Position numbers and translations under genes: made by a program. From the NCBI GenBank assembly GCA_017536625.1, contig JAFXGY010000020.1:1-47205 (forward strand): a DNA stretch of 47,205 nucleotides, given 5' to 3'. The first letter of the stretch is position 1; every line of letters begins with the position of its first letter. Below, piece by piece: positions 440-11,850 of the stretch. The stretch is from Oscillospiraceae bacterium (lineage in GTDB: Bacteria; Bacillota; Clostridia; Oscillospirales; Ruminococcaceae). The notes beneath the pieces are model-generated. The model had not been told where the DNA came from. It made no database searches and saw only the letters and a list, made by a program, of their open reading frames with translations.

Positions 440-468
440 TTGAAAAACGCCGCAAATGGTGGTATATT
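440..468 (+). promoter_or_regulatory. Promoter of RNA cassette 1
   Basis: -35 TTGAAA (440-445), 17-bp spacer, -10 TATATT (463-468). The same boxes and spacing occur in cassettes 2 and 3. Predicted start is near 475. Confidence 0.8.
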
Positions 469-474
469 TAAATC

Positions 475-798
475 ACAGAAAGGATGATTCCAATGTACAA
501 ATGAAAAATGAAAGCTTTTATGAGAAAGAAAAGCTTTCAGAGGAAAAGCGAAGACCTTCGGAAATTAAGTTCCAAAAACAGGCTGTTAGAAGAAGTGCAA
601 AACTCGAAAAAATAAAAGGAACTGATTTATAGCGATACGAAGGCTTCGGTAAGAACATCCGAATAAAAAGAAAGAGAGGTTGAAATATGTTAGACTTTAA
701 GAGTTCACAGAAATAACCCTTGGCTTTGCAGGTGAAAGATGCAGAAGTCAAGGGTTATTTCTTTTATTGGGGAACGGCGCCGAAGGGGCGCTTTTTTT
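475..798 (+). ncRNA. Structured RNA, cassette 1 (family not recognised)
   Basis: Predicted RNA of about 324 nt from the promoter to the GCGCC/GGCGC terminator at 776-798. Elements in order: 5' box with SD-like AGAAAGGA (477-484); micro-ORF Met-Tyr-Lys-stop (493-504); stem P1 GAAAGCTTTT (510-519) with AAAAGCTTTC (529-538); long-range stem P2 CCTTCG (555-560) with CGAAGG (638-643); SD-like AAAGAGAGGT (671-680); micro-ORF at 687-716; 12-bp hairpin 711-722 with 749-760. Its loop contains AGGTGAAAGATG. P1, P2 and the 3' hairpin recur in the other cassettes with different bases that still pair, which is direct evidence for structure. CGAAGGCTTCG at 638-648 could form a competing local hairpin. GGATG in the 5' box (482-486) could pair with CATCC (656-660) and hide the first ribosome site. 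Function is unknown; a dual-function RNA or a ribosome-interacting RNA are inferences only. Confidence 0.75.
687..716 (+). CDS. Nine-residue micro-ORF in RNA cassette 1
   Basis: ATG with AAAGAGAGGT 6 nt upstream encodes MLDFKSSQK and stops at TAA 714-716. The last codons and the stop form the 5' arm of the 3' hairpin. Cassettes 2 and 3 encode MMLDTKIEQK at the same place, so MLD-x-K-x-x-QK is kept. Translation is not proven, and the conservation could come from the RNA alone. Confidence 0.35.
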   Translation: MLDFKSSQK

Positions 799-961
799 GT
801 TGCGCAAAATCCGGACAAAAAAATAAGCCGGCTGATTTTCGGCCGGATAACATATTGAATATAACAAAAAAACATTATAATGTCAATAACTTTGGTGCAA
901 AATTAACAATTTTCTGTGTTTTGCATAATTTGCAAAAAAGAATTTCGTGCGGAATTGCGGC

Positions 962-990
962 TTGAAAAAGAAGGAAAACGGTGGTATATT
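962..990 (+). promoter_or_regulatory. Promoter of RNA cassette 2
   Basis: TTGAAA (962-967), 17-bp spacer, TATATT (985-990). Predicted start is near 997. Confidence 0.8.
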
Positions 991-996
991 TAAGTC

Positions 997-1360
997 ACAG
1001 AAAGGATGATACCCGATGTACAGATAAACATCAGGAATCCGAATCAAAAAGAAACATGAAGCAGGATTCGGATTGAAGATGCTGACCTTCGGAAAGAACA
1101 AGAAAACAGCTCCCGCATGAAGATCAACCCGCTTAAGGGGAAAAAGAAGAAAAAAGAAGTGTAAAAGGGACAGAAAGATTGATATACGAAGGCAGCGAGT
1201 AAGAACATCCAAATATGAAGAAAGAGAGGTTAAAATGATGTTAGATACTAAAATAGAACAGAAATGACCCTTGCTTTATCGTAGGTGAAAGATGCGATAA
1301 TTCAAGGGTCATTTCATTTATATAAAATTTTGTGTTTGCGCCGGAAGGGCGCGTTTTTTT
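997..1360 (+). ncRNA. Structured RNA, cassette 2 (family not recognised)
   Basis: Predicted RNA of about 364 nt. Elements: 5' box AGAAAGGATGAT; micro-ORF Met-Tyr-Arg-stop (1016-1027); P1 AATCCGAATC (1036-1045) with GATTCGGATT (1065-1074), a sequence unrelated to P1 of cassette 1 but perfectly paired; P2 CCTTCG (1086-1091) with CGAAGG (1187-1192); AAAGAGAGGT (1221-1230); micro-ORF 1235-1267; 13-bp 3' hairpin (1261-1273 with 1303-1315). In that hairpin an A-T pair of cassette 1 is replaced by G-C. Terminator at 1338-1360. The spacer after it holds a small hairpin CAGCC-TTTT-GGCTG. Confidence 0.75.
1235..1267 (+). CDS. Ten-residue micro-ORF in RNA cassette 2
   Basis: Encodes MMLDTKIEQK (or MLDTKIEQK from the second ATG), with AAAGAGAGGT just upstream. 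The TGA stop lies inside the 5' arm of the 3' hairpin. The peptide is identical to that of cassette 3. Confidence 0.4.
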   Translation: MMLDTKIEQK

Positions 1361-1507
1361 ATGCAAATAAAAAAAGAACAGCCTTTTGGCTGCCCAACAT
1401 TTTAAATATACTCCTTATTTATGACAAAGTCAATGGATTTTGGTGCAAAAAACGGATTTCTGTGTTTTGCATAACTTTATCGCTTTAACTTAGTGCAACA
1501 TTGCGGA

Positions 1508-1536
1508 TTGAAAACCGCTGAAAAAAGTGGTATATT
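1508..1536 (+). promoter_or_regulatory. Promoter of RNA cassette 3
   Basis: TTGAAA (1508-1513), 17-bp spacer, TATATT (1531-1536). Predicted start is near 1543. Confidence 0.8.
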
Positions 1537-1542
1537 TAAACC

Positions 1543-1902
1543 ACAGAAAGGATGATTCCAATGTACAATTAAACATTGAAAGTTCAGTTTTTTGTAAAAG
1601 AACTTTCAGAGGAAAAACCGTTACCACCTTTGGTAAAAAGATTTCCGACATTTTAAAAGGTCCCAACTTTTGATTAACACCCGTTTTGTTTTGTAGGCTT
1701 GAAGCAGCGGTTCGGAAATTGCAATTAACCAAAGACAACGAGTCGAATGTTGATTCTGTAGAAAGAGAGGTCAAAATGATGTTAGATACTAAAATAGAAC
1801 AGAAATGACCCTTGCTTTATTGTAGGTGAAAGATGCGATAATTCAAGGGTCATTTCATTTATATAAAAATTTTTATGTCGGCGCCGAAGGGGCGCTTTTT
1901 TT
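1543..1902 (+). ncRNA. Structured RNA, cassette 3 (family not recognised)
   Basis: Predicted RNA of about 360 nt. Elements: 5' box AGAAAGGATGAT; micro-ORF Met-Tyr-Asn-stop (1561-1572); P1 GAAAGTTC (1578-1585) with GAACTTTC (1600-1607); a P2 candidate CTTTGGT (1628-1634) with ACCAAAG (1728-1734), which changes the CCTTCG/CGAAGG pairing of the other copies while keeping it paired; SD-like GAAAGAGAGG (1761-1770); micro-ORF 1776-1808; 13-bp 3' hairpin (1802-1814 with 1844-1856); terminator 1880-1902. TTACCA/TGGTAA at 1621-1636 offers a competing local hairpin. The middle part is the most diverged of the three copies. Confidence 0.7.
1776..1808 (+). CDS. Ten-residue micro-ORF in RNA cassette 3
   Basis: Encodes MMLDTKIEQK, the same peptide as cassette 2. 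GAAAGAGAGG lies just upstream and the TGA stop sits in the stem of the 3' hairpin. Confidence 0.4.
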   Translation: MMLDTKIEQK

Positions 1903-11614: not shown

Positions 11615-11667
11615 AAGCAAAGCAAGAAACGCTTGGTATTCATCCTTTCCCAATGAATCCCCACGCA

Positions 11668-11850
11668 AATTTTTTATGGCAAGTCTTCTGGCTTATGCTT
11701 CAACCGAAAAAAACAGCCCTTCCCGCAAAAAGCAGTGGGATAAAATGTTTTTCCGTCGGCAATTACAGCTGAGGGAGCAGCCGCGGATTTTAACCGCGTT
11801 CCTTTTTACCGCGAAAAAATCGCGGCCATAAAAAGCGCTGATATTTAATT
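11668..11850 (-). promoter_or_regulatory. Cobalamin riboswitch
   Basis: On the minus strand the conserved parts appear in order: GGTTAAAATCCGCGGCTGC (the G-x-x-AAATCC core), CCCTCAGCTGTAAT, CCCACTG, GCGGGAAGGGC, and the B12 box AGCCAGAAGACTTGCC (11678-11693). It precedes an ECF transporter operon and would switch it off when adenosylcobalamin or a related corrinoid is plentiful. The terminator at 11588-11614 is the likely output. End positions are approximate. Confidence 0.92.

Follow-up and report, generated by a model that had tools for sequence, protein, structure and literature searches.

Three tandem RNA units with a micro-ORF at each end, paralogues from an apparently uncatalogued RNA gene family in the class Clostridia

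Results

Three tandem units with two micro-ORFs each

The 47,205-nucleotide (nt) stretch of DNA analysed here (hereafter the window) is the entire contig JAFXGY010000020.1 of a 1.9-Mb draft genome from an Oscillospiraceae bacterium (assembly GCA_017536625.1). Between positions 440 and 1902 it holds three tandem units, each composed of promoter, RNA and terminator, just as a preliminary description drawn from the sequence alone had laid them out. A TTGAAA-17-TATATT promoter sequence, with a 17 base-pair (bp) spacer, precedes each unit (440-468, 962-990 and 1508-1536), and the units follow one another at intervals of 522 and 546 bp. The RNAs measure about 324, 364 and 360 nt in copies 1, 2 and 3, from 5′ ends (+1) placed at about 475, 997 and 1543 on the basis of the -10 element to the terminator T runs at 798, 1360 and 1902. 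The compensatory changes reported previously for helices P1 and P2 and for the 3′ hairpin all read in the sequence as stated. The P1 arms are GAAAGCTTTT/AAAAGCTTTC in copy 1, AATCCGAATC/GATTCGGATT in copy 2 and GAAAGTTC/GAACTTTC in copy 3; P2 is CCTTCG/CGAAGG in copies 1 and 2 and CTTTGGT/ACCAAAG in copy 3; and the 3′ hairpin exchanges AGAAATAACCC/GGGTTATTTC for AGAAATGACCC/GGGTCATTTC between copies.

Comparison with relatives suggests that the three units are paralogues belonging to a family of stand-alone RNA genes that appears to be uncatalogued and occurs in the class Clostridia. The typical RNA opens with a strong Shine-Dalgarno (SD) sequence and AUG-NNN-NNN-stop (SD1 and open reading frame 1, ORF1), continues with a lineage-variable body containing predicted base-paired elements, and closes with a second SD, a second short ORF and a hairpin (SD2, ORF2 and 3′ hairpin). 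The first of these elements follows the pattern AGAAAGGAUGAUUCC, or its variants AAAGGGUGAUACC and AAAGAGAGGUACAGUCC, then AUG, two codons and a stop; the window peptides are M-Y-K, M-Y-R and M-Y-N in copies 1, 2 and 3. Its region is part of none of the covariance models described below. Among 110 unique homologous modules, an SD1-like start was called by pattern in 95. ORF1 has exactly three sense codons in 68 of these, versus 6% of the AUGs in shuffled upstream sequence, and two to four codons in 82; for that range the shuffles give 19%, and the upstream ATGs taken together, ORF1 among them, 27%. A stop follows after one to four sense codons in 83 cases (TAA 56, TGA 18, TAG 9). Since the inner codons differ between families (M-R-K, M-K-S, M-F, M-W etc.), the feature that is kept appears to be the early stop, not the peptide. 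In two loci the SD1-like element is repeated: three times in tandem in L110, about 240-340 nt before SD2 and with a micro-ORF at two of the repeats, and twice in L183, each time with a micro-ORF.

ORF2 encodes M-L-D-x-K followed by about four residues. A script found an in-frame ORF with [LT]DxK in 108 of the 110 modules, 103 of them 9 or 10 codons long; the two that it missed, read by eye, encode MIDPKSEQK and MTLDIKNEQK, so that Asp and Lys occur in all 110. This figure applies to an ORF that falls inside the covariance model, and to a set of modules screened beforehand: those lacking a recognisable SD2 or a start resembling TTAGATA, with up to two changes, had been removed uncounted. Within the 108, Asp and Lys change at third codon positions only (GAT 99, GAC 9; AAG 78, AAA 30), a pattern also seen in the genus set found by blastn. 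Leu is present in 102 modules, through five codons, and Thr in 6. Start codons are ATG (96), TTG (11) and GTG (1), and stops TGA (63), TAA (40) and TAG (5). In nearly all modules the stop lies within the 5′ arm of the 3′ hairpin, and exchange of an A-U for a G-C pair in this arm, turning UAA into UGA, keeps both the pair and the stop; the L106 homologue has lost the stop in the hairpin. Together, ORF1 and ORF2 amount to a coding signature, and on this sequence evidence the units are not purely non-coding. At the peptide level only, MLD(I/T/N/F)K resembles the start of seryl-tRNA synthetase. Seven serS genes begin with MLDIK, MLDLK, MLDIR or MIDIK; their start regions differ from ORF2 in nucleotide sequence, and the 260 nt upstream of these seven genes hold no such RNA. 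We regard the likeness as a coincidence.

Conservation of LDxK at the amino-acid level, with ATGTTAGATATCAAGAGTGAACAGAAATGA or near variants found in class-level relatives, would be expected if the RNA were chiefly a messenger for the ORF2 peptide, for example a regulatory one, and its body a long 5′ leader controlling translation. Nevertheless, the first residues alone are well kept, the last ones changing along with the hairpin. Moreover, the peptides are mostly 9 or 10 residues long, copies within one cell encode differing versions, and an ORF1 of three codons, with no constraint on which codons they are, speaks for events at the ribosome rather than for products. We consider the peptide messenger unlikely, though a serious alternative.

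Table 1. Features of the three tandem units (positions in the window).
Feature	Position	Strand	Basis
Copy 1 promoter, TTGAAA-17-TATATT, extended -10 TGG	440-468	+	sequence; -10 region conserved in genus
Copy 1 RNA, start from -10, end at terminator T run	475-798	+	sequence
Copy 1 SD1 (AGAAAGGATGATTCC) and micro-ORF1 ATG-TAC-AAA-TGA, M-Y-K-stop at 493-504	477-504	+	16S-tail duplex -15.2 kcal/mol
Copy 1 P1 hairpin GAAAGCTTTT/AAAAGCTTTC, arms 510-519/529-538	510-538	+	sequence, per-copy fold
Copy 1 P2, CCTTCG 555-560 with CGAAGG 638-643	555-643	+	sequence, per-copy fold
Copy 1 SD2 (AGAAAGAGAGG, 669-679) and ORF2 MLDFKSSQK-stop (687-716)	669-716	+	sequence, ORF comparison
Copy 1 3′ hairpin, arms 709-722/749-762, ORF2 stop within 5′ arm	709-762	+	sequence, covariation
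Copy 1 second, distal intrinsic terminator	776-798	+	sequence
Copy 2 upstream box TTTCTGTGTTTTGCATAA	911-928	+	pattern search
Copy 2 promoter	962-990	+	sequence
Copy 2 RNA	997-1360	+	sequence
Copy 2 SD1 and micro-ORF1 ATG-TAC-AGA-TAA, M-Y-R-stop at 1016-1027	999-1027	+	sequence
Copy 2 P1 AATCCGAATC/GATTCGGATT, arms 1036-1045/1065-1074	1036-1074	+	sequence, per-copy fold
Copy 2 P2, CCTTCG 1086-1091 with CGAAGG 1187-1192	1086-1192	+	sequence, per-copy fold
Copy 2 SD2 and ORF2 MMLDTKIEQK-stop (1235-1267)	1219-1267	+	sequence, ORF comparison
Copy 2 3′ hairpin	1260-1315	+	covariation
Copy 2 distal terminator	1338-1360	+	sequence
Copy 3 upstream box TTTCTGTGTTTTGCATAA	1457-1474	+	pattern search
Copy 3 promoter	1508-1536	+	sequence
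Copy 3 RNA	1543-1902	+	sequence
Copy 3 SD1 and micro-ORF1 ATG-TAC-AAT-TAA, M-Y-N-stop at 1561-1572	1545-1572	+	sequence
Copy 3 P1 GAAAGTTC/GAACTTTC, arms 1578-1585/1600-1607	1578-1607	+	sequence, per-copy fold
Copy 3 P2, CTTTGGT 1628-1634 with ACCAAAG 1728-1734	1628-1734	+	sequence, per-copy fold
Copy 3 SD2 and ORF2 MMLDTKIEQK-stop (1776-1808)	1760-1808	+	sequence, ORF comparison
Copy 3 3′ hairpin	1801-1856	+	covariation
Copy 3 distal terminator	1880-1902	+	sequence

Predicted strength of the two ribosome sites

SD strength was computed as the duplex energy against the 16-nt 3′ tail of 16S rRNA, with what we take to be the sequence of that tail. SD1 reaches -15.2, -14.3 and -15.2 kcal/mol in copies 1, 2 and 3, and SD2 -14.6, -13.7 and -13.6 kcal/mol. 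By comparison, the median is -8.5 kcal/mol and the best value -14.4 kcal/mol for the starts of 39 window ORFs of at least 200 amino acids, some of which will be misplaced, the first methionine having been taken in each case. For random 22-mers the median is -4.7 kcal/mol, and the strongest 1% reach -14.0 kcal/mol. In homologues the medians are -16.0 kcal/mol for SD1 (n=92, one value being an artefact) and -13.7 kcal/mol for SD2 (n=110). SD1 begins about 2 nt past the presumed RNA start, which places a strong SD near the 5′ end, as in 5′ stabilisers.

These values can also be read as the mark of a ribosome decoy, in which 30S subunits or the anti-SD would be titrated by both SD sites and, in the genus, by a hairpin loop with the sequence AGGUGA, in the way that 6S RNA titrates RNA polymerase. 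Base pairing with SD1 can involve 14 of the 16 tail nt; the genus loop, predicted to be unpaired (0.98), is complementary as well (about -8.4 kcal/mol); and the SD1-like element is repeated in L110 and L183. A decoy would, however, need very high RNA levels, and SD1 is predicted to be rather paired. The loop is GGUGAAAGA in 39 of the 110 modules and GUAAAGA in 17, no such motif being present in 51, and neither a stop codon nor a peptide would be of any use to a decoy. This makes the decoy quite unlikely in our estimation.

Conservation of the RNA fold

Covariation was assessed by counting pairs in 84 aligned model matches and comparing the counts with 500 shuffles and with a control in which the arms were slid. 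The 3′ hairpin is paired in 95.3% of 1540 cells (78.3% in shuffles) and carries double changes at all 20 of its pairs, for a total of 291 double-change cells as opposed to 73.6 in shuffles. None of the 500 shuffles reaches the observed value by any measure, and sliding the arms causes pairing to fall to 32-52%. The alignment, having been fitted to the hairpin structure, leans its way; the effect is far beyond what fitting would give.

Within the genus, folding each copy separately puts the number of pairs with double changes, summed over all helices, at 4 in copy 1, 8 in copy 2 and 6 in copy 3. The RNAalifold covariation term counts slightly against copies 1 and 2 (+0.27 and +0.48) and in favour of copy 3 (-1.43); P2 is nearly invariant in copies 1 and 2. 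The data support selection on the predicted RNA fold, most strongly on the 3′ hairpin and, between paralogues, also on P1 and P2. The strong evidence lies with these elements and does not extend to a fold of the whole middle. The distance from the ORF1 start to the 3′ module ranges from 102 to 709 nt across homologues, the shortest values possibly reflecting misassigned starts. An internal hairpin (4-bp stem, NNUUAN loop) is recurrent and not universal (22 of 110 modules versus a shuffled mean of 1.75), and a pattern for a core, ACACGRCGGUGU..AUAUAGAU, matched 21 times, which leaves about 19 of 110 once the window and L111 are discounted as chance. In copy 2, GGATG within SD1 (1004-1008) could pair with CATCC (1206-1210) just 5′ of SD2, a possible switch for SD1; the pairing is disrupted in some relatives.

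Distribution of the family

A blastn search with copy 3 gave matches in 12 of 15 genus genomes. The named relatives are Oscillospiraceae metagenome-assembled genomes, most of whose records give a ruminant host. The genus comparison set comprised 33 units from 12 loci, a further locus of G001 (contig C80) being left out. In nine of the 12 loci three paralogues follow one another in the same order. Two units each came from L018, L038 and L017; unit 1 of L017 was dropped (no recognised 5′ start), and its remaining two both resemble copy 3. Genomes G007, G008 and G013 gave no matches or matches at E-values (E) of 0.04-0.5, and the stretches inspected (L197, L198) are not homologues.

A strict DNA pattern matched the window's own genome alone among 148 family genomes, and covariance models were therefore used. 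The 33 sequences of the 3′ module went into model R1, which found matches in 5 of 197 family genomes (including the window's own and one genus member) and reached two other genera. The rebuilt model R2 matched 13 of 396 family genomes at E up to 0.01 and 78 of 394 order genomes at the same threshold (69 at 1e-4), spanning 40 of 169 genera and up to four places per genome. With a further rebuilt model, R3, matches at E up to 0.001 were obtained in 23 of the 391 class genomes, 20 of which also pass at 1e-4. Across 398 phylum genomes, a sample that also includes genomes of the family, order and class, R3 at E up to 1e-4 matched only the window's own. Since two R2 matches at E of about 2e-5 (L088, L089) look like chance, counts at weak E-values are upper bounds.

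Vescimonas fastidiosa MM35 is a cultured, named carrier (locus L196). Its RNA, with an ORF1 reading M-T-stop and an ORF2 reading MMLDIKSEG-stop, lies in the gap between a TetR-family gene and spoVAC. The record lists no feature at this site, its gene table being incomplete by design.

Genomic context and upstream boxes

Over 79 loci, no conserved regulated gene of the kind that marks a cis-leader was found directly downstream, and the commonest shared neighbour protein family occurs at 5 loci. The neighbouring genes not being conserved, these appear to be stand-alone RNA genes; an operon or cis-regulation was rejected on the same grounds. Each window copy has a putative promoter of its own; among relatives, conserved upstream boxes occur in most of those whose 5′ flank could be read: TTTGCAYAAA in 66 of 72 (19 shuffled), TTTGTACAAAA in 46 (5 shuffled) and TATTGCAA in 53 (12 shuffled). 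A -10-like hexamer is present in 55 of these 72 upstream regions. An 18-nt form of the first box lies before window copies 2 and 3. In eight genomes this form gave 107 matches, versus 33 for a reversed control. Thirty of the 107 were viewed by eye for a wider regulon, an idea that was dropped: only RNA genes had both boxes and a promoter. Loose matches to the second box were also seen in L202, L208, L214 and L227 among these 30 loci.

ORF2 reaches into a terminator-like hairpin, as the leader ORF of an attenuator would, and a U tail (at least four Ts within 14 nt) follows the hairpin in 60 of 108 homologues and in 5 of 29 rows from the window's genus. Such an arrangement might form a ribosome-mediated attenuator in which a ribosome translating ORF2 as far as the stop in the 5′ arm blocks termination and allows expression of a downstream gene. 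A same-strand ORF does begin about 75 nt past the last unit in L038, and a same-strand gene follows the RNA in L056 (by eye). But downstream genes are not conserved and the next one is convergent in the window, L037, L042 and L045; furthermore, each tandem copy has a promoter to itself, and a second terminator lies past each window hairpin. Attenuation is, we believe, very unlikely.

Other elements were noted near these genes. A tRNA gene occurs in 15 of 91 scanned loci and is tRNA-Pro in 8 of the 15 (L037, L042, L045, L101, L121, L163, L172 and L174; three of the eight belong to one genus). Gut-1 RNA (RF01706), another unexplained gut RNA, lies a few hundred bases away in two loci (L174:1813-1887 and L107:2148-2221). 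Elsewhere in the window, a cobalamin riboswitch (11661-11845, minus strand, 102.7 bits) precedes minus-strand ORFs that we take to be an ECF-type transporter cluster.

Search for a known identity

No Rfam 15 family reached its gathering score over the three window units or over the RNA in 20 homologous loci, where the matches obtained (T-box in L115, tRNA in L121, Gut-1 in L107) lie outside the RNA. In nine loci scanned at E 0.5, the sole overlap with the RNA was a sub-threshold microRNA match in the L167 hairpin. Scanning the window at E up to 10 gave sub-threshold matches only, among them a T-box leader (RF00230) at 663-849; AGAGAG and GGUGAAAG are reminiscent of T-box motifs. The match, at 14.4 bits and an E of 2.1 against a gathering score of 93 bits, was rejected. 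A phage search with copy 3 gave no match, and two patterns run on viral contigs gave no true homologue: the first hit an unrelated gene start (L165) and a contig end (L166) that matches model positions 1-42 of 117, and the second hit nothing. This IMG/VR contig (L166:6153-6194) ends abruptly in SD2 and the ORF2 start, its last gene resembling a phage tail protein; the end may be an assembly chimera or a real junction. Given these results, and with no shared neighbours, it is extremely improbable that the units are a mobile element, or members or relics of a known family such as T-box, tmRNA, 6S, raiA or ROOL, the T-box match notwithstanding. CsrA binds GGA motifs, and a CsrA sponge was considered; the GGA of SD1 in the genus is GGG or GAGAGGU elsewhere and so is not general. 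Searches of open-access papers for related RNAs, the peptide or the mechanism, and three motif surveys, yielded no description of the RNA, although a listing in a supplement is possible. We conclude with good confidence that the family is new.

Discussion

The preliminary description had seen in the three units a multi-copy RNA with a selected fold and no recognised family. On these points it holds: the units are three paralogues kept in the same order in most genus loci, compensatory change extends to every pair of the 3′ hairpin, and the RNA has no Rfam 15 match at gathering score in the loci scanned. Its suggestion of a ribosome-linked RNA also fits the presence of two SD sites, each with a conserved micro-ORF behind it, as far as sequence can tell. 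What it overlooked are the micro-ORFs themselves, and with them the apparently partly coding nature of the units.

A very strong SD with start and stop within 12 nt at the front, and an SD, a short ORF and a stop in a stable stem at the back, suggest that both ends serve to recruit ribosomes for a short time only. The reading that we tentatively prefer, as a leading possibility rather than a probable one, is a trans-acting RNA whose two ends are held by ribosomes at the micro-ORFs while the variable middle does the work. Ribosomes would start on ORF1 and terminate immediately, and do likewise on ORF2. The ends so held would be shielded from exonucleases, the 5′ part working like the SD-based 5′ stabilisers of Bacillus. 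The RNA would then be long-lived, and its structured, paralogue-specific middle could engage RNAs or proteins in trans. The three copies would form a small paralogue set with different targets. Ribosome binding, stability and targets are all inferred here, as is a presumed regulatory role.

Several observations weigh against this reading. An SD alone would suffice to stabilise an RNA, which leaves the stop at codon 4 of ORF1 and the conservation of LDxK unexplained. In predicted folds of genus units the mean unpaired value is 0.36 for SD1 (n=32), 0.56 for SD2 (n=33) and 0.44 for the whole RNA; SD1 is thus rather paired, and folding does not support free access of ribosomes to it. Fifteen of the 110 modules have no SD1-like start by the patterns used, and ORF1 runs for 7-24 codons in 12 of the 95 homologues that do. 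Covariation is weak in the genus per-copy folds, no common core or target emerges from so variable a middle, and the 18-nt upstream box was not found before window copy 1 with up to two mismatches. Finally, the distribution is patchy, 3 of 15 genus genomes being without the RNA, two of them with chance-level matches only, and the RNA must therefore be dispensable.

One could go further and envisage a stand-alone RNA that mimics translation starts. SD1 would pair with almost all of the 16S tail and sustain futile cycles of two to four codons, and a second ribosome would be parked at the LDxK ORF, with its stop buried in the hairpin stem. The RNA would thereby hold free ribosomes, count them or report on them, acting on the ribosome as 6S RNA acts on RNA polymerase. 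This extension strikes us as doubtful. The preferred reading, a trans-acting RNA with ribosome-held ends, raises the question of whether start-stop micro-ORFs can tie a bacterial regulatory RNA to the ribosome. The question of tethering is directly testable, as the structured RNA lies between a minimal ORF and a 9-10-codon ORF ending in a terminator-like stem. The work thus points to a multi-copy RNA gene family across the class Clostridia with no Rfam 15 match, and to ORFs that show a clear coding signature at a length of only about ten codons, under the size usually called by gene finders.

According to PMC3997798, untranslated RNA of some length is stabilised in Bacillus by a strong SD close to its 5′ end, and a start codon is not needed. 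The Clostridia RNA is like the STAB-SD of cryIIIA, ermC and hbs described there in having a strong SD close to the 5′ end and predicted ribosome binding. STAB-SD leaders belong to protein genes, whereas the Clostridia RNA has no conserved protein gene behind it, a three-codon ORF, and a second SD and ORF at its 3′ end. Translation of mini-ORFs has been proposed to protect mRNA in other bacteria, as set out in PMC8708949. Bacterial minigenes (axe-txe mg2, LEE leaders) likewise have ORFs of 2-6 codons behind an SD, with a proposed role in RNA protection; unlike them, acting as they do in cis on the next cistron, ORF1 has no cistron at a fixed distance. The odc1 motif, as presented in PMC8632094, is also a structured RNA with a conserved micro-peptide ORF (an 11-amino-acid upstream ORF). 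It differs in lying before genes, in a proposed role in start-codon choice and in being alphaproteobacterial.

Like raiA/ModT, ROOL, GOLLD and OLE, the family is a structured bacterial RNA outside protein genes; unlike them, it has no Rfam match, conserved ends, a variable middle and two micro-ORFs. The dual-function small RNAs RNAIII and SgrS are stand-alone RNAs with one longer ORF and a regulatory body. The Clostridia RNA also stands alone and also carries coding sequence, but in the form of two micro-ORFs at its two ends.

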